Shown here piece after piece: positions 27,489 through 35,774 of a stretch of DNA of 37,312 nucleotides (the first letter of the stretch is position 1; each line of letters begins with the position of its first letter). Below the pieces are notes generated by a model. That model saw only the letters and a list, made by a program, of their open reading frames with translations, had not been told where the DNA came from and did no database searches. The position numbers and the translations under genes are program-made. The DNA is from Acidobacteriota bacterium. GTDB taxonomy: Bacteria; Acidobacteriota; Terriglobia; Bryobacterales; Bryobacteraceae. The DNA lies in contig VFZX01000029.1 of NCBI GenBank assembly GCA_016871015.1, positions 1 to 37,312 of the forward strand, in the 5' to 3' direction.

Positions 27489-28562
27489 CTATTTTAGATC
27501 CTGGATCAGGCGGGCCCACTTGGCCTGGAAGTCCGCGCGGTCAAACACCTCGGGATTCAGCACTCCCACCGGCCGCTTCCCGCGCGCGAGGTCGAGCATC
27601 GCCTGGCAGGACATCGTTCCCAGCCGCTGGCCGTGTTCGCGCGTAATGGCGATTCCGTGGGGCGCCAGAATCACGTTGTCGAGCTCGGCGAACCGGGGCG
27701 GGGCAGTCAGCGGCTCGCCAATGAAGCAGTCGATTCCAGCGCCCGCGATCCGGCGGTGCTTCAGCGCTTGATACAACGCCTCCTCGTCGACGATTCCGCC
27801 GCGCGCGACGTTGATCAGGTAGGCGTCCGGCTTCATCAGCGCGAGTTCGCGCGCGCCGATCAGGTTGCTGGTCTGGGGCGTCAACGGGCAGTGGATGCTC
27901 ACGAAGTCCGCCGACGACATCAACTCGTCAAGCCCCACCATGCGCACGGGACCGCCATCGGTCACGAAGGGATCGAAGCCGATCGGCGGATTCATCCCAA
28001 GCCCTTCGCACAACTGCGCGAGCGCTCTTCCGATGCGGCCGAGTCCGATAATGCCGAGCGTGCGTCCGCCGATCTCGCATCCTTGGAACCGCAGCGGATC
28101 GCCCCAGCGTGCCTCACGGACCAACCGGTCCTTGCCCATCAGGTTGTGCGACAGGGCGAGCATCCAGCACAGAGTTGCTTCCGACACGCAACGGTCCACC
28201 GCGCCGGGTGTGATGGCGGCGACGACGCCGGCACCGGTGCAGGCCGGGACATCGACATTGTCGTAGCCGACGCCGAACCGGACCACAGCGAGCAGGTGTT
28301 CAGCCTGGGCGAGCGTCGCGCGGGTGATCTTCGATCCGCGCACGATCACGCCCTGGTCCGCGCCCAGTTGTGCGGGCGTCACCTCCGGGGTATGCTCGGG
28401 AAAGCCGCGAAGTTCGACAAACGGGGCGTCCGAGAACACGCCGAGTCCGACATCGGGCGACGGAAAATTGCCGTCTGGCAAGAATGAGTCGCCGGTGAAG
28501 GAGACCCGGAAAACTTGCCGGTCCCAGCCGGTCCGTGGGGCGTAGCGGTCAACTCGCTGCAA
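27489..28562 (-). CDS. NAD-dependent D-2-hydroxyacid dehydrogenase family protein
   Basis: About 357 residues. The Rossmann signature GLGRIG (about 173-178) follows TLGII. The conserved catalytic-type residues appear in order: arginine in NVARGGIVDEEAL, glutamate in CFIGEPL and histidine in LAPHGIA. VVRFGVGYDNVDV is the usual nucleotide-domain lead-in of phosphoglycerate dehydrogenase relatives. I chose TTG 28562 because GGAGG (28570-28574) lies exactly 7 nt before it; a TTG at 28583 would place that site inside the gene. It is first in a seven-gene leftward operon. The substrate is not evident. It differs from SerA in having no C-terminal regulatory domain. Confidence 0.88.
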   Translation of the reverse strand: MQRVDRYAPRTGWDRQVFRVSFTGDSFLPDGNFPSPDVGLGVFSDAPFVELRGFPEHTPEVTPAQLGADQGVIVRGSKITRATLAQAEHLLAVVRFGVGYDNVDVPACTGAGVVAAITPGAVDRCVSEATLCWMLALSHNLMGKDRLVREARWGDPLRFQGCEIGGRTLGIIGLGRIGRALAQLCEGLGMNPPIGFDPFVTDGGPVRMVGLDELMSSADFVSIHCPLTPQTSNLIGARELALMKPDAYLINVARGGIVDEEALYQALKHRRIAGAGIDCFIGEPLTAPPRFAELDNVILAPHGIAITREHGQRLGTMSCQAMLDLARGKRPVGVLNPEVFDRADFQAKWARLIQDLK

Positions 28563-28569
28563 GAAAGTT

Positions 28570-28600
28570 CCTCCGATGAGCAAAAACCTGCATCATAGCA
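28570..28600 (-). promoter_or_regulatory. Extended -10 promoter and ribosome site of the housekeeping operon
   Basis: Read leftward, TGCTATGAT occupies 28600-28592: a TATGAT hexamer (one mismatch to TATAAT) preceded by TGn, the extended -10 arrangement that needs little -35 sequence. Transcription would start near 28585, giving a leader of about 23 nt with GGAGG at 28574-28570 and the TTG start at 28562. Position, spacing and ribosome site agree with each other. No comparable promoter for the rightward protease gene is obvious in the same 78-bp gap. Confidence 0.5.
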
Positions 28601-28640: not shown

Positions 28641-31600
28641 ATGTCTTTTCGCAATTTGAGCATTCTGATCGCCATGCCGCTGTTCGCGGACGAGGTAAAC
28701 CGCAAAGTCTTCCTGAATCCCCACGGATCGCTGACGGAGGCGAGCCCGCGCCCGGCAGGCTCCATCGCGGAGACTTTTCTCAGGTCCGCGGTGAACCTGG
28801 GTCCTGAAGGCTTGGCCGGCACCTTCGTCGCCAAAGAGTACAAGACGGCGCACAACGGTGTTACGCACTTCGTGTACCGCCAGCGATTCCAAGGCATCGA
28901 GGTTTACAACGCGGACTTCACCGTCAATCTCGACCGCGACGGCCGGGTGCTCAGCGCTGGCGGAAATCTGTACCCGCGGCCCACCGGTGCACTTCCTCCG
29001 CAACTGAGCCAAAAGGCGGCGTCAGCGGCTCGTACGGCGGCACGTGCGGTGTCGCAGCCGGATTGGGCACCCGCCGGACCCGCTCCCGAACTGGTCTGGT
29101 TCGGTGTCAACGGACTCCTGCGGCCGGCCTGGGTGGTGGAGACGCTCGGCGAAGACGGAATCTCGCGCAGCAATCTCGTGGTTGACTACGAGACGGAGCG
29201 GATCCTGGCCACGGAGAGTATGACGTACTTCCAGAATCCCCAGGGTCTGGTGTTTGAGCGGGGCACTCCGCGGCCGAACCCGCAGCCGGGCCGGGTACTC
29301 GATACCCCGCCGCCTTTCGTGTCACGCACGATGCAGTCCTTTACCGGCGATCCCACGGCGTCGCCACGTGGCTGGGTGTCGGGCGGCCGGACCGCGGGGA
29401 ACAACGTGATCGCCGGGCTCAATCCGCTGGGCATCATATTTCTCGAAACTCCAACGCTGAGCTTCAGCACGGGCGGCGAGTTCACCCCGCCGCTCGACCT
29501 GGGTCCTGGTGCGCCGCCCCTGTACACGTTCGGCGATGCGGCCACGGTCAACCTGTTCTACTGGATGAACCGCACCCACGATCTGTTCTACGCCGCCGGA
29601 TTCGATGAGGCCGCGGGCAATTTCCAGGAGGACAATTTCGGTCGCGGCGGCTCCGGCGGTGATGCGATCCGCGCCTATTCCCATTTCGGATCGGGCGGAC
29701 AGATCGCGGCCCAGTTGAACAACGCGTTCTTCCAATGGCGGAGGCCGGAGGACGGATCCCCGTCGATGATCGCCATGTACCTGGGATCGAGCCGGGGCGA
29801 GTTCACCGACGGGTCCTATGACGGTGACGTGATTGTCCATGAGTACGGGCACGGCGTCAGCGCCCGGCTGGTGCGGCGCAACTACACGACGTTCCAGGGC
29901 GGTTCGATGGGCGAGGCGTGGAGCGACTTCTTCGCGCTCGAGTTTCTGTCGCCGGAAGGCGCCCCGGTAGACGGGGTCTACGGCGCGGCCGAGTACCTGT
30001 TCAACGCCTTTGGGACCGGGTTGCGCACACGGCCCGTCTCGACCCGCATGGACGTGAATCCGCTCACGTTCGCTGATTTGGGGCGGGTGATCTCGTTCCC
30101 TCAGGTTCACGCCGACGGTGAGATTTGGGTGCAAGCGCTTTGGGACATTCGCGCCAACCTGATCCGGCAGTTCGGAGAACGCGAGGGGCGGCGCCGGGTG
30201 CGCCTGCTGGTGATCGACGGAATGAAGCTGTCACCGCCCGCGCCCTCAATGGTCGACATGCGGGATGCGATCCTGCTCGCCGACCGGGTGGGTTTCCGCG
30301 GCGAGTCGCAGGAGCAGATCTGGGCTGGGTTCGCCAAGCGGGGGCTGGGCGTGCTGGCTCAGTCGTTCTCGGCGGCATCGACGCATGTGTCGCCGTCGTT
30401 CGACACGCCTTCCCGCACCGCGGCGATCCGCTTCTACGAAGATTCCTACTATCAGGGAGAGGCAGTCCGCGTGATTCTGCATGACGCCAACCTGGCAGGA
30501 GCGTTTACCTCGGTGATCCTCACCAGCACGAGCGGTGATCTCGAGCCCCTGGTCCTCGACCGCACCGGAGCTGTCTACATCGGCAGCCTTCCCACGAGCC
30601 CGTTCGCCGGGCCGCAGCGGAATGGCGTGTTGAACCTGTCCCTGGGTGACTCGATCACCGCCCATTACCGGGATCCCGATACCGGCTCTGGCCCCCGGGA
30701 CATCGAGCACACCGCACCAACGAGCCTCACCTATTCGACGTTTTCATCGCCGCCGCGTCCCTTCACGTTCTCCAATGAGGTGAACCTGAACTTTCGCGCC
30801 GGTCAGGGCGCCTTCCGCCGGGTCGAGTTGCCCTTCGACTTCCCGTTCTACGGTCAGACGTACCGGTCGGTGCGGCTGTGGTCCGACGGCCTCCTTTCGT
30901 TTGGCACCGCGAATCCCGGTTTCTGCCGGGATCCCATCGAATTCTCGAAGGTTACCGCGATCGCGCCGCTGTGGCTCTTCATGACCACCGCGGGTGCCGT
31001 GCAGCCCAACGAGAGCGTTTACCTGTCGTCGGCACCGGGGTCGGTGACGTTTCGATGGGTGGGTGAAACGCTCCCGATTCTCGCGCCGCCCACTCCCGTG
31101 AATTTTGCCGTAACCCTCAACGAGAATGGGACGATTGAGTTCAGGTACGGGCCCGGCAACACGAGTCTGAGCCAGGGACTCCAGAGCGCCGCCTGCGGCA
31201 TCCTTGCGCCCATGATCGGGATATCGAGTGGCCGCGAGACGATGACACAGACGGCCCCCGGCACCTACGGACGCGTGAACCTGGAGAACGCACCCGTGGT
31301 GGCGATGATTCCGGCAGAGAACCCCCCATCTCTTCCATCCGGCGAGCTAACCCAGCCCACGGCCGGGCAAACCGTTCAGTCGATCCTGTCCGGACGGGGG
31401 ACGCTGGCGAGCTTCAACGATGGCATCAGACGTGCGGATGTGTTGATCGACGGCGGCTACCGGGCGGGTGCGGCGCTGGCCATCAATCCCCGCCTTCCGC
31501 AGTGCTCCGGAGTGCCAAACATGAATTGCTACGACCTCACCTTCGATCTGGATGTCAACGCACTGGGCCTCAGTCCGGGCGCTCACAGGATCCAACTGCG

Positions 31601-32393
31601 CGTCGCCAACTTCGGCGGAGGCTTCACGGACATCCCGGCTGAGCCGGTCGAGTTCACGGTGGAGCCGGGCGAGGCTGCCCCGCCTGCCGGAGCGGTTGAG
31701 ACGCCGGGCGGCGGTGAAACCTTGCGGGGCGCGATTCCGATTCGCGGATGGGCGGCGGCCGGATCGCTGCGCGTCACCGCGGTGGATGTTCTGGTCGACG
31801 GACTGACCGTGGGCCGCGCGGTCTATGGTGCGGCGCGGCCGGACGTTTGCGATGGCCTGAATCCGCGTCCGGTCAACTGTCCCGGCGTGGGTTTCACGTT
31901 CACCTGGAATAGCGCCTCTGCTAACCTTCCGTTTGCCGACGGTCCACACGGGTTGCAGATTCGCGTGTTAGACCAGACGGGACGGATGACCCTGCTCCCC
32001 GAGACTCCGGTGACCATCAACCTCGAAAATGGCGGGAACCAGCTCCCCGTGGGCGTCCTGGTCACGCCGGCCAACGGCGACCGTGTATCCGGAGTCACGC
32101 GGATCTGGGGTTATGCGTGGGACCCCGACGGCCGGATCGTCAACGCGACCCTGTTCGTCGACGGCGAGGTGATCGCGGCGGTTCCCTACGGTGAGCCAAG
32201 GCCGGAACAATGCGAGCAGCTTCCCGATGTGGCCCGTTGTCCCAACATCGGATTCGCACTCGAGTTCGACACACGCGTCCTCGCCAACGGCAGCCATGTG
32301 CTGGGGATCCAATTGACCGACGACCGTGGATCCTCGGTGTTCATCGCCGGCCCCAACCGCCGCGGCATCAACATCACGGTGGACAATCGATAG
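28641..32393 (+). CDS. Secreted M36 fungalysin-like metalloprotease with C-terminal beta domains
   Basis: A 1250-residue protein. A short signal sequence (about 1-16) leads to an FTP-type propeptide region (GVTHFVYRQRFQGIEVYNADFTVN) and the peptidase domain. The zinc site is H400-E-Y-G-H404, with the third ligand E425 in GEAWSDFFA, as in M36 enzymes. After the peptidase comes a beta-sandwich resembling nidogen-type NIDO domains (PFYGQTYRSVRLWSDGLLSFG to about 31180). Three Ig-like repeats of ~115 residues then follow, each with one cysteine pair: QCSGVPNMNC, VCDGLNPRPVNC and QCEQLPDVARC. It should be processed and act outside the cell on proteins. AAAGG precedes the ATG. It is transcribed alone. 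Confidence 0.9.
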   Translation: MSFRNLSILIAMPLFADEVNRKVFLNPHGSLTEASPRPAGSIAETFLRSAVNLGPEGLAGTFVAKEYKTAHNGVTHFVYRQRFQGIEVYNADFTVNLDRDGRVLSAGGNLYPRPTGALPPQLSQKAASAARTAARAVSQPDWAPAGPAPELVWFGVNGLLRPAWVVETLGEDGISRSNLVVDYETERILATESMTYFQNPQGLVFERGTPRPNPQPGRVLDTPPPFVSRTMQSFTGDPTASPRGWVSGGRTAGNNVIAGLNPLGIIFLETPTLSFSTGGEFTPPLDLGPGAPPLYTFGDAATVNLFYWMNRTHDLFYAAGFDEAAGNFQEDNFGRGGSGGDAIRAYSHFGSGGQIAAQLNNAFFQWRRPEDGSPSMIAMYLGSSRGEFTDGSYDGDVIVHEYGHGVSARLVRRNYTTFQGGSMGEAWSDFFALEFLSPEGAPVDGVYGAAEYLFNAFGTGLRTRPVSTRMDVNPLTFADLGRVISFPQVHADGEIWVQALWDIRANLIRQFGEREGRRRVRLLVIDGMKLSPPAPSMVDMRDAILLADRVGFRGESQEQIWAGFAKRGLGVLAQSFSAASTHVSPSFDTPSRTAAIRFYEDSYYQGEAVRVILHDANLAGAFTSVILTSTSGDLEPLVLDRTGAVYIGSLPTSPFAGPQRNGVLNLSLGDSITAHYRDPDTGSGPRDIEHTAPTSLTYSTFSSPPRPFTFSNEVNLNFRAGQGAFRRVELPFDFPFYGQTYRSVRLWSDGLLSFGTANPGFCRDPIEFSKVTAIAPLWLFMTTAGAVQPNESVYLSSAPGSVTFRWVGETLPILAPPTPVNFAVTLNENGTIEFRYGPGNTSLSQGLQSAACGILAPMIGISSGRETMTQTAPGTYGRVNLENAPVVAMIPAENPPSLPSGELTQPTAGQTVQSILSGRGTLASFNDGIRRADVLIDGGYRAGAALAINPRLPQCSGVPNMNCYDLTFDLDVNALGLSPGAHRIQLRVANFGGGFTDIPAEPVEFTVEPGEAAPPAGAVETPGGGETLRGAIPIRGWAAAGSLRVTAVDVLVDGLTVGRAVYGAARPDVCDGLNPRPVNCPGVGFTFTWNSASANLPFADGPHGLQIRVLDQTGRMTLLPETPVTINLENGGNQLPVGVLVTPANGDRVSGVTRIWGYAWDPDGRIVNATLFVDGEVIAAVPYGEPRPEQCEQLPDVARCPNIGFALEFDTRVLANGSHVLGIQLTDDRGSSVFIAGPNRRGINITVDNR

Positions 32394-32428: not shown

Positions 32429-33739
32429 ATGCTGTCTGACAAGCTTCGCGCTTCGGGCGTTGTGGGCGCCGGTGGCGCGGGCTTTCCAGTTCATGTGAAG
32501 GCCAGGTCGCAGGTCGAGTTCATGGTGGTGAACGGGGCCGAGTGCGAGCCGCTCATCCACAAGGACGCCGAGATCATGAAGCACTTTCCGGGTCCCATTC
32601 TCGACGGTGCCGAGGCGATGCGGCAGGCCACCGGCGCGCAGCGCACCAAGTTCGGCGTCAAGACCAAGAACCAGGAATCGATCGATGCACTGAAGGCCGC
32701 CAACCGCCACGCTGCCGTCGACTGGGTGGAACTCGGCGACTTCTACCCGTCGGGCGACGAGTATGAGCTGGTCTACACGGCCACCGGGCGGCTGATTCCC
32801 GCCGCTGGAATCCCGCTGGCAGTAGGCTGCGTGGTGAACAACGTCGAGACGCTGTACAACGTGACGGAAGCGCTGGCGGGCCGCCCGGTGACCCACAAGT
32901 TCGTGTCGATCGCGGGCGCGGTGCGTGAACCGAAGTCGTTCTGGGTGCCCGTGGGCGTAACGTTCCGCGAGCTGATCGCGCTGGCGGGCGGCGCGTCGGT
33001 GCCCGAATTCGGAATCTTCGTCAGCGGACTCATGATGGGCACGTTCACCTGGGACCAGGACGATGTCGTCACCAAGACCACCGCCGGGCTGATCCTGCTT
33101 CCGTCTGACCACTACCTGATCACCCGGCGTGTCCGCACCCAGGTGGAGATGAACCAGATCGGAAAATCGGCGTGCGACCAGTGCAGCTACTGCACCGAGT
33201 TCTGCCCGCGGTACCTGCTTGGCTACGAAGTCCAGCCGCATAAGGTGATGCGCAGCCTCGGATTCACGATGTCGGGCGAGGCTTACTGGAACCAGTGGGC
33301 GGACCTGTGCTGTTCCTGCGGGCTGTGCACGCTCTATGCCTGCCCCGAGGACCTCTATCCCAAGGAGGCGTGCGATGACGGCAAGAAGTACCTGCGCCAG
33401 GCCGGGATCAAGTTCCAGCAGCAGCATCCGGTCCAGGTGCATCCGATGAAGGAATACCGCCGTGTCCCGCTGTTGCAGTTGCGCAGGCGGCTGAAGGTGG
33501 ACGAGTACGAGCGCGATACACCATACGAAGAGATCCGGTACCAGCCCTCCAAGGTCCGGCTGAAGCTGAAGCAGCACGCAGGCAAGCCCGCGGCGCCGGT
33601 GGTCAAGGTGGGACAACGCGTGAAAGCCGGGGCTCTGGTGGCGGACCTTCCCGAGGCGGATTTGGGTTGTCCGGTTCACGCCTCCATCGCGGGTACGGTA
33701 TCGGCGGTCACGGCGGACAGCATTGAGGTGACGGCATAA
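32429..33739 (+). CDS. PduS/RnfC-like flavin and iron-sulfur electron-transfer protein
   Basis: A 436-residue protein of the PduS type (cobalamin reductase of the propanediol-utilisation microcompartment, related to RnfC and the 51-kDa subunit of complex I). Segments in order: GVVGAGGAGFPVHVK and NGAECEPLIHKDAEI (flavin/nucleotide domain), an SLBB-type region (VSIAGAVREPKSFWVPVGVTF), a first cluster site C249-x2-C252-x2-C255-x3-C259, a second site CCSCGLCTLYAC (C294-C305), and a C-terminal sandwich with GCPVHASIAGTVSAV. PduS proteins carry FMN and two 4Fe-4S clusters and pass electrons to or through the shell. The ATG of the PduT-like gene follows its stop directly. No cobalamin enzyme is nearby, so the electron acceptor is unknown. 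Confidence 0.88.
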   Translation: MLSDKLRASGVVGAGGAGFPVHVKARSQVEFMVVNGAECEPLIHKDAEIMKHFPGPILDGAEAMRQATGAQRTKFGVKTKNQESIDALKAANRHAAVDWVELGDFYPSGDEYELVYTATGRLIPAAGIPLAVGCVVNNVETLYNVTEALAGRPVTHKFVSIAGAVREPKSFWVPVGVTFRELIALAGGASVPEFGIFVSGLMMGTFTWDQDDVVTKTTAGLILLPSDHYLITRRVRTQVEMNQIGKSACDQCSYCTEFCPRYLLGYEVQPHKVMRSLGFTMSGEAYWNQWADLCCSCGLCTLYACPEDLYPKEACDDGKKYLRQAGIKFQQQHPVQVHPMKEYRRVPLLQLRRRLKVDEYERDTPYEEIRYQPSKVRLKLKQHAGKPAAPVVKVGQRVKAGALVADLPEADLGCPVHASIAGTVSAVTADSIEVTA

Positions 33740-34291
33740 ATGGCCAAGAATTCAATCGGACTCATTGAGCTGACGTCGATCGCGTCCGGCTTCCAGTGCT
33801 GCGACGCTATGCTCAAAGCTGCTGATGTCGACCTTGTGGTCTCACGCAGCATCTGCTCGGGCAAGTACATGGTGCTGATCCGTGGCGACGTGGCCGCCGT
33901 TCAGGCAAGCGTCTCCGCCGGACGTAGCGCGGGCAACTTCTCCGTCATCGACTCCTTTGTGATCCCGAACCTGCACGAGAGCGTGTTTCCCGCCATCGCA
34001 GGCAACAGCAAGGTCGAACGGATGGAAGCGCTCGGCATCATCGAGAGCTTCTCCGTGGCCGCGCTCATTGAGGGCGCTGACGCGGCGGTCAAAGCAGCCA
34101 ACGTGGAGCTGATCGAGATCCGGCTGGCGATGGCCCTGGGCGGAAAGGCGTTCGCTACGTTCACCGGGGATGTCGCGGCGGTTCAGGCGTCGGTCGAGGC
34201 CGGCGCGCAGGTGGTGGGGCAGAAGGGGATGTTGGTCAACAAGGTGGTGATCCCCTATCCCCGGCCCGAACTGCTGCGCGAGATGATCTGA
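33740..34291 (+). CDS. PduT-like tandem-BMC-domain shell protein (BMC-T)
   Basis: A 183-residue protein with two BMC domains (about 1-90 and 95-180), the design of trimeric BMC-T shell proteins. It follows Salmonella PduT closely in pattern: SIGLIELTSIASG, DAMLKAADVDLVVSRSICSGKYM and GIIESFSVAALIEGADAAVK. C39 in S-I-C-S-G-K matches the PduT cysteine (Cys38) that holds a 4Fe-4S cluster at the trimer pore, so an iron-sulfur shell conduit is likely. It directly follows the PduS-like gene, and the two proteins interact in the Pdu system. No other shell protein, pentameric vertex protein or signature enzyme is in the window. Confidence 0.92.
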   Translation: MAKNSIGLIELTSIASGFQCCDAMLKAADVDLVVSRSICSGKYMVLIRGDVAAVQASVSAGRSAGNFSVIDSFVIPNLHESVFPAIAGNSKVERMEALGIIESFSVAALIEGADAAVKAANVELIEIRLAMALGGKAFATFTGDVAAVQASVEAGAQVVGQKGMLVNKVVIPYPRPELLREMI

Positions 34292-34913: not shown

Positions 34914-35774
34914 ATGGCCGCGCTCGTGAACCTGGCTGCTTCCATGGCGCCGCTGGACCCGCAACTGCTTGAGGCCAAACAGGAGCGGCTGTTTGCGAAC
35001 CTCCGTGAGCTGGGCCAGGTGCTGGTCGCCTACTCGGGCGGCACGGACTCGGCCTACCTTGCCTGGGCCGCCCATCAGGTGCTCGGCACACGCTCTGCCG
35101 CGATCACGGCGGACTCACCGTCCATTCCGGAGTCCCATAAGCGCGACGCCGCCGAGTACGCCCGGGTCTGCGGCTTCCAGCACGAGTTCATCCCGACCTA
35201 CGAGTTCGACAACCCGGACTACGTGAAGAACGACAAGGACCGATGCTTCCACTGCAAGGATGAGCTTTTCGTCAGGCTGGAAGAGGTGGCTGCCACGCGC
35301 AACGTCGCCCACATCATCTACGGAGTCAACCAGGACGACCTGGGGGACTACCGCCCGGGCCAGCGCGCCGCGAAGATCCACCAGGTGAAGGCGCCGCTTG
35401 TCGAAGCGGGCCTGGCTAAGGCGGAAATCCGGGAGCTGTCCCGCCGCGCCGGACTGCCGTTCTGGGACCGTCCCGCCGCCGCCTGTCTCAGCTCACGCAT
35501 CCCGTACGGGACGCCTGTCTCAGTCAAGACGATCAAGACTGTCGAGGCCGGTGAGGAGTCGCTCAAGGATCTCGGGTTCCGGCAGTTCCGTGTCCGGTTC
35601 CACGGCGAGCTGGTCCGGATCGAGATTGCGCGCGAGGAGTTGGAGAGGGCACTCAGTCTCGAAATGGCCGGACGGCTGACGGCCATCTTCAAACCGCTCG
35701 GGTTCCACTACGTGACGCTCGACCTCGAGGGCTACCGTCAGGGATCCCTCAACGCCGTTTTGAACGGCGGCTGA
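34914..35774 (+). CDS. larE: LarE, ATP-dependent sacrificial sulfur transferase
   Basis: A 286-residue LarE-type protein. LarE activates the pyridinium dicarboxylate precursor with ATP and gives up its own cysteine sulfur to build the nickel-pincer cofactor of lactate racemase. The PP-loop is SGGTDS (41-46). The likely sacrificial cysteine is C191 in AAACLSSRIPYGT, matching Cys176 of Lactobacillus plantarum LarE. A further RCFHCK pair (C111, C114) is present. The start is ATG 34914, or ATG 34944 giving MAPLDPQLLEAK. LarB, LarC and LarA are not in the window, so the cofactor pathway would need genes elsewhere. Its last 37 nt overlap the opposing membrane protein gene. Confidence 0.92.
   Translation: MAALVNLAASMAPLDPQLLEAKQERLFANLRELGQVLVAYSGGTDSAYLAWAAHQVLGTRSAAITADSPSIPESHKRDAAEYARVCGFQHEFIPTYEFDNPDYVKNDKDRCFHCKDELFVRLEEVAATRNVAHIIYGVNQDDLGDYRPGQRAAKIHQVKAPLVEAGLAKAEIRELSRRAGLPFWDRPAAACLSSRIPYGTPVSVKTIKTVEAGEESLKDLGFRQFRVRFHGELVRIEIAREELERALSLEMAGRLTAIFKPLGFHYVTLDLEGYRQGSLNAVLNGG

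Follow-up and report, generated by a model that had tools for sequence, protein, structure and literature searches.

An unlinked PduS-PduT gene pair as a probable satellite electron conduit of an ACI-like microcompartment in Acidobacteriota

The stretch of DNA analysed here, referred to as the window, spans contig C29 from end to end (37,312 nucleotides; GenBank VFZX01000029.1) in the genome of an Acidobacteriota bacterium in the Bryobacteraceae (assembly GCA_016871015.1). It carries two ORFs, abutting on the forward strand with 0 bp between them, that encode a PduS-like oxidoreductase and a PduT-like shell protein (Table 1), and the contig ends just 3.0 kb past the latter.

Table 1. Features of the PduS-PduT pair and neighbouring genes in the window
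Feature	Positions	Strand	Basis
D-2-hydroxyacid dehydrogenase (PF00389/PF02826)	27489-28583	-	
M36 fungalysin-type metallopeptidase (1250 aa)	28641-32393	+	
PduS-like flavo-iron-sulfur NADH oxidoreductase (436 aa)	32429-33739	+	ORF, Pfam domains, alignment
PduS Complex1_51K (FMN/NADH-binding) domain, residues 7-146	32447-32866	+	Pfam
PduS first [4Fe-4S] motif, C249xxC252xxC255xxxC259	33173-33205	+	alignment
PduS second [4Fe-4S] motif, C294xxC297xxC300xxxxC305	33308-33343	+	alignment
PduS C-terminal RnfC_N-type barrel-sandwich domain, residues 372-429	33542-33715	+	Pfam
PduT-like tandem-BMC-domain (BMC-T) shell protein (183 aa)	33740-34291	+	ORF, Pfam, structure-chain alignment
PduT pore cysteine C39 codon, predicted ligand of pore cluster	33854-33856	+	alignment
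LarE-type sacrificial sulfur transferase	34914-35774	+	

Profiles PF01512, PF10531, PF13534 and PF13375 were matched in that order along the PduS-like protein, which is the domain set and order given for PduS in the excerpts of PMC6325248 that were available. Its barrel-sandwich domain lies at the C-terminus, unlike that of RnfC, and RnfC could be aligned to it only in permuted order. The two cluster motifs, CxxCxxCxxxC and CxxCxxCxxxxC, have spacing identical to that of the Citrobacter PduS motifs (PMC2982820, in excerpt), and the protein was 38% identical to the annotated Salmonella PduS across 95% of its own length. A survey of 299 genomes of the class returned full-length PduS sequences 61-100% identical to that of the window in 29 genomes, the window's own included (clade A), and sequences 44-47% identical in another 10 (clade B), after which match scores dropped from 336 to 121 bits. 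For comparison we used 43 clade A loci, i.e., the window, 14 named loci and 28 from class genomes, together with loci fetched from 6 of the 10 clade B genomes. The named loci came from metagenome assemblies labelled Acidobacteria, Bryobacterales, Bryobacteraceae, Terriglobia or Candidatus Solibacter usitatus, and some may be the same species as class genomes. All eight cluster-motif cysteines were invariant in the aligned PduS sequences (43/43 of clade A, including one cut by a contig end and one of 406 aa; 6/6 of clade B), as were G10, G13, A14, G15, G16, G18, F19 and P20.

The PduT-like protein contains two PF00936 stretches, combining the tandem BMC domains and pore cysteine of PduT, and solved PduT-type chains aligned with it end to end. 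At the position of C39, the chains 3nwg and 3pac have cysteine, while 3n79, also named PduT, has serine as deposited. C39 was invariant in the aligned sequences (42/42 of clade A and 6/6 of clade B), and so were K26 and K118, in the same 42/42 and 6/6, which we take to be edge contacts between BMC tiles. The protein scored 130.7 bits against the NCBIfam equivalog TIGR02526, under the cut-off of 250.3, and is therefore named 'PduT-like'. Across 11 chosen locus pairs (22 comparisons), dN/dS was 0.05-0.15 for PduS and 0.02-0.13 for PduT, values that are approximate because several dS were near or above 1; selection on the pair is purifying in the locus pairs tested. A sequence-only reading of this DNA had described an isolated PduS-PduT pair at 32429-34291 that keeps both cysteine-cluster sites and the pore cysteine and looks functional. 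That description was borne out: Pfam and the alignments agree on the two genes, the eight PduS cysteines have the published Citrobacter spacing, C39 aligns with the cysteine of two solved chains, and the intact frames and cluster cysteines and the dN/dS of 0.02-0.15 suggest functional proteins.

The only shell-domain matches on C29 were the two domains of PduT, and no microcompartment gene besides PduS and PduT was found in the window. The LarE-type gene begins 0.6 kb downstream of PduT; LarE has a role in lactate racemase maturation, and no match to this gene turned up next to PduS-PduT at any of the remaining 42 loci. Between the end of the metallopeptidase gene and the start of PduS there are 35 bp. 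The co-directional ORF upstream of PduS was mostly something other than an M36 metallopeptidase in relatives, and some ORF of >=200 aa ended within 150 bp upstream of PduS in 26/41 loci, a count that includes shadow ORFs and omits 2 loci near a contig edge; our script-based ORF calling favours long ORFs, shadow ORFs among them. The D-2-hydroxyacid dehydrogenase gene, 3.8 kb upstream of the pair, encodes an enzyme of a class that ACI main loci are published to contain. Apart from the window, L018 was the only one of the 43 loci with a homologue near PduS, and the gene's position beside the pair is therefore probably a coincidence. No sigma-70-type promoter or terminator was matched at the pair, and no Rfam family or tRNA in the window.

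Across the clade A loci, the pair stood alone. No aldolase, BMC-P, aldehyde dehydrogenase (AldDH) or separate BMC-H gene was matched in any of the 43 loci, the DNA covered being 37 kb for the window and 5-21 kb for relatives. A search for a third conserved gene, in which 932 ORFs of >=60 aa from 12 loci were compared with all 43 without ORF filtering, gave a top neighbour matched in 10/43 loci. An earlier version of this test, which set aside PduS, PduT and overlapping ORFs, gave a largest family in 5/43 loci and was weak because its ORF picking caught PduS in 30/43 loci and PduT in 10. PduT came after PduS at a spacing of -10 to +185 bp in 38 loci, and in two others the contig ended just past or within PduS. 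In three genomes (G210, G299 and G300), PduS and PduT lay on different contigs (L167, L168 and L169 with L020, L023 and L068) and both were kept, which provides a natural test of their coupling. A pair of the window's type, apart from the main shell locus, was present in 29 of the 39 genomes with PduS and PduT. In two single-contig genomes from the window's family, the main locus was 1.5 Mb (G109) and 3.2 Mb (G153; 1.6 Mb the other way if circular) from the pair, and the nearest association observed was an AldDH gene ~29 kb from the pair on one contig of G225. Upstream of the pair, main and AldDH loci, we found no convincing common motif; the best shared k-mers exceeded all ten shuffles (0.29 vs <=0.19 for 7-mers, 0.12 vs 0.09 for 8-mers) and were judged to be GC-rich repeats of compositional origin. 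A plasmid vehicle was considered and rejected: 13 plasmid-collection records matched, none of them >=60% identical, and the ten among the matches listed were 36-39% identical.

We then turned to the host genome (8.66 Mb in 720 contigs, 99.7% complete), which held one PduS, one PduT, and a total of four BMC-domain and three BMC-P matches over three contigs. The BMC-domain matches comprised one on contig C191, one on C10 and the two PduT domains, and all three BMC-P genes were on C191. The gene order on C191 was class II aldolase, BMC-H, BMC-P, BMC-P, BMC-P, and on C10 a BMC-H gene was followed directly by an AldDH gene of the acylating type (547.6 bits against TIGR02518, under the cut-off of 620.1). 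No second PduS was found in the genome, the sole other match being weak (29% identity over 96 residues). PduL was likewise not found, in a search that gave matches in control genomes, and no diol dehydratase large subunit was found, a negative that is weak because no control matched either. The tetranucleotide composition of the window correlated with that of C191 at r = 0.982 and with that of the initial 20 kb of C10 at r = 0.987, compared with 0.71-0.96 for the 12 relatives' loci tested; this composition shared among C29, C191 and C10 argues against contamination.

In the class survey, which scored up to five candidates per genome for PduS and AldDH and up to 11 for PduT, PduT occurred in 39/299 genomes, exactly the same 39 as PduS. 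The presence in 29/299 genomes of PduS 61-100% identical to that of the window indicates that the pair is not a chance occurrence. BMC-P was matched in 109/299 genomes and unmatched in 190/299, and was found in 29/29 clade A and 9/10 clade B genomes. The sole genome with PduS and PduT and no BMC-P match was G152, which has a completeness of 85% and contains four BMC domains. The AldDH of the window's genome was matched strongly in 29/29 clade A and 3/10 clade B genomes. The association of clade A with BMC-P gave a Fisher p of 1.3e-14 by genome and a hypergeometric p of 2e-6 by genus (20/20 clade A genera fell within the 60 of 106 that have BMC-P), tests in which the relatedness of the genomes is only partly removed. 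Conversely, 71/109 BMC-P-positive genomes (two of them showing only one weak BMC-P match) had no pair, and the pair is therefore dispensable for the organelle. One genus was mixed, with the pair in G129 and not in G121.

To characterize the organelle itself, we compared 67 main loci picked for the BMC-P genes in them; 29 came from pair-carrying genomes and 38 from genomes that lack the pair. BMC-H and the first and second BMC-P genes were matched in all 67, the third in 66 and the aldolase in 58. The nine loci with no aldolase match beside the shell genes (L090, L094, L097, L105, L110, L113, L115, L117 and L118) all belonged to pair-carrying genomes (9/29 vs 0/38); seven of them fall in two genera, and a contig end truncates L105. 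BMC-H adjoined AldDH in all 39 of the AldDH loci examined, and in two of these the main locus was only a few kb off. The recurring neighbours read in these AldDH loci were RecJ, in at least 21/39, and a ~167-aa protein with no function assigned, encoded after AldDH in at least 11/39 (L178:6460-6963 and homologues); recJ lay behind the 167-aa gene in both loci read (L178 and L188). One AldDH, at L011:8914-10674, has a long C-terminal tail past the Aldedh domain, with, by eye, two encapsulation-peptide-like helices, a Cys-Gly-Cys-Gly stretch and a further ~45 residues.

These arrangements resemble the ACI type of microcompartment, for which the sections of Sutter et al. (2021; PMC8217296) that were available describe BMC-H and a BMC-P triplet together with two enzymes, a class II aldolase bearing a C-terminal encapsulation peptide and a hydroxyacid dehydrogenase; AldDH is there consistently on a satellite locus and has MIC3 as its only close phylogenetic relative. 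As in ACI, the class II aldolase has a C-terminal encapsulation-like helix (by eye, a VTRxELIxLVxEAL-like tail was seen in all 14 aldolases inspected, every fourth of 56-59), the window's genome has a BMC-P triplet and at least one BMC-H, and AldDH sits on a separate satellite locus. Unlike ACI, the main locus showed no hydroxyacid dehydrogenase match: there was none on C191 and one in 1/67 main loci in a tblastn search that used the window's enzyme (PF00389/PF02826) alone and could miss a remote homologue. We therefore call the organelle 'ACI-like'. The idea that a hydroxyacid dehydrogenase had been swapped for PduS-PduT was rejected on the same count of 1/67, and because a gene cluster that seemed enriched in main loci of pair-lacking genomes proved on reading to be RuvB.

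We consider it likely that the pair serves, as a satellite electron-conduit module, an ACI-like sugar-phosphate microcompartment encoded elsewhere in the genome. From the sequences, both proteins are intact, single-copy, conserved as a pair and confined to genomes with shell genes and an AldDH of the acylating type, and it is because they are single-copy that we prefer a satellite to a module that works without a shell. The pair has too few shell genes for a shell and a BMC locus lies elsewhere in the genome, which corresponds to a satellite locus in the 2021 wording (PMC8217296); in the 2014 wording (PMC4207490) it would be 'satellite-like', because a BMC-related redox gene accompanies the shell gene, both definitions being taken from excerpts. 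The sequence-only reading had headed its description of the pair with the words 'without a microcompartment locus', which is correct for the window, where PduT supplies the only shell domains, and incorrect for the genome, given C191 and C10. Of its two proposals, the satellite fared well: the BMC-H, BMC-P and aldehyde dehydrogenase genes it suggested searching for were all found on those two contigs, and BMC-P and AldDH accompany the window-type pair in 29/29 genomes. The conservation of the two genes together, which it had also proposed to check, extends over the same 39/299 genomes, and what it named as contrary evidence, a full BMC locus with its own PduS and PduT alongside decay of the pair, was not encountered, there being no second copy in the genome and a dN/dS of 0.02-0.15.

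By analogy with characterized relatives, the aldolase would release an aldehyde inside the shell and AldDH would convert it to acyl-CoA, making NADH in the lumen. PduS, carrying FMN and two [4Fe-4S] clusters, would dock on the lumenal face of PduT and oxidise this NADH. Electrons would then pass to a [4Fe-4S] cluster in the pore of the PduT trimer, where C39 from each of the three subunits would hold it, and on to a cytosolic acceptor, so that NAD+ would be regenerated without NADH crossing the shell. C. freundii PduS binds FMN and two [4Fe-4S] clusters, oxidises NADH and copurifies with PduT, and the reported midpoints are -150 mV for the PduS cofactors and +99 mV for PduT (PMC2982820, in excerpt). 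Most likely, therefore, if the acidobacterial proteins behave as their homologues do, PduS oxidises lumenal NADH and PduT passes the electrons through the shell. Organelle-bearing genomes without the pair must balance NADH another way; the recurrent AldDH-locus neighbours read (RecJ and the 167-aa protein) turned up no co-located NADH-recycling gene.

The sequences themselves do not fix which way electrons flow, and the conduit could run in reverse, with cytosolic electrons entering through PduT and PduS making NADH or reducing a lumenal acceptor, as may occur for an alcohol-forming step inside the lumen. We regard this as unlikely, since AldDH resembles the acylating, NADH-producing type, at the TIGR02518 score given above, and the midpoints, as reported in the excerpted source, would favour outward flow. 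A role for PduS as a corrin reductase, reactivating B12 for a cobalamin enzyme as in Pdu with PduT serving only as an anchor, is very unlikely. C. freundii PduS is also a cobalamin reductase (PMC2982820, in excerpt), and the domain order of our protein is that of PduS; however, in this genome it is an aldolase and an AldDH that are encoded alongside the shell genes, no diol dehydratase large subunit was found (weak, the controls being silent), and PduS and PduT are kept in GRM loci without B12 enzymes according to the passages of PMC6325248 consulted. The other proposal of the sequence-only reading, a shell-free redox module in which a cytosolic PduT trimer acts as iron-sulfur partner of PduS with no microcompartment, would explain why no other shell gene lies near the pair in the DNA of 43/43 loci of the window's type and why no third gene is conserved beside it. 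It has become highly improbable, as 0/29 genomes with a window-type pair lack BMC-P or AldDH even though 190/299 class genomes have no BMC-P, and K26 and K118, presumably the tile contacts, have been kept throughout (42/42 and 6/6). That the pair is left over from a lost Pdu-type locus, whether as a stray, a decaying or a contaminating piece of DNA, as its isolated position and patchy distribution might suggest, is barely credible in view of the dN/dS of 0.02-0.15, the intact frames in relatives, the invariant cluster cysteines, the similarity in composition to C191 and C10 and conservation in 29/299 genomes.

The history of the pair was compared with that of the main locus. On the 67-row main-locus tree, the 12 families required only 11 family changes, the smallest number possible, f2 branching inside f1 (the window's family), and the presence of the pair required at least 8 changes. 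Among the 29 pair genomes, the main locus separated 23 f1 rows from six rows of f3, f5, f9 and f14 by one branch with support of 100/100, whereas f1 was broken up on the PduS+PduT tree of the same 29 genomes. There, G001 (f3) was grouped with the f1 rows G000, G050, G043 and G149 with strong support (100/99), the f5 and f14 rows joined the f1 row G036 (92/94 and 91/80, not starred), and f9 was placed elsewhere. Forcing the six non-f1 rows together on the pair tree cost 102.7 log-likelihood units (AU p 3e-12, a value that is not fully a priori because the group was chosen after percent identities were seen). The pair had a median identity of 0.690 between families and 0.700 within them; for the main locus the corresponding values were 0.655 and 0.765. 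Against separate inheritance, f9 stayed one clade and the pair-tree changes over the five families equalled the minimum of 4; the conflict rests on the break-up of f1 and not on scattered single families.

As judged from these trees, the pair appears to be inherited partly independently of the shell and AldDH genes. It looks like an independently transferred plug-in module whose movement between soil bacteria seems to have been separate from that of the other organelle genes. The simplest reading is transfer between acidobacterial families, with the pair landing or surviving only where a shell exists; ancient paralogy with loss, rather than transfer, may instead lie behind the tree conflict. 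We tentatively suggest, with confidence somewhat short of even, that PduS-PduT acts as an 'electron port', autonomous and spread by horizontal transfer, with which an aldolase/AldDH microcompartment already in place can be retrofitted. If so, the vertically inherited shell would stay in place while electron export was gained or lost through one unlinked two-gene cassette. Related genomes, even of one genus, share the main shell locus and differ in whether they carry the pair; this amounts to a natural gene swap, and deletion or addition of the two genes could therefore be used to test electron export with the organelle operon untouched. It also suggests that a redox conduit is able to evolve as a separable module. 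The role of PduS and PduT in organelles without B12 enzymes is described as an open question in the available part of PMC6325248.

Amongst known systems, the pair resembles the PduS and PduT of the Citrobacter and Salmonella Pdu microcompartment in domain order, cysteine spacing, pore cysteine and the pairing of the two genes. Unlike in Pdu, it lies outside any pdu operon, neither PduL nor diol dehydratase was found in the genome (the search controls for the latter being silent), and PduT is under the NCBIfam equivalog cut-off. GRM microcompartments, as portrayed in excerpts of PMC6325248, share a PduS-PduT pair in organelles without B12 enzymes; there, PduS and PduT are a component of the GRM loci, whereas in the present genomes a long distance separates them from the main locus. 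The words PduS and PduT have no occurrence in the main text of the ACI description, as available (PMC8217296), and our literature searches found no paper on an unlinked acidobacterial PduS-PduT pair. Closest in taxonomy is a second acidobacterial type of microcompartment locus in the same class that has its own PduS-PduT (clade B: G213, G103, G105, G104 and G084; loci L083-L086 and L088), which we call PVM-like from gene content alone. In these five of the six clade B loci fetched, PduS-PduT lay near three BMC-H, one or two BMC-P, AldDH-like and aldolase-like genes, on the opposite strand from the shell genes in four and on the same strand in G104. The PVM-like loci thus differ from the window in holding pair and shell genes within ~15 kb, and in a PduS that is only 44-47% identical. 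The parts of the system described here are of known kinds, and it is their unlinked and, by the trees, separately inherited arrangement that is new.
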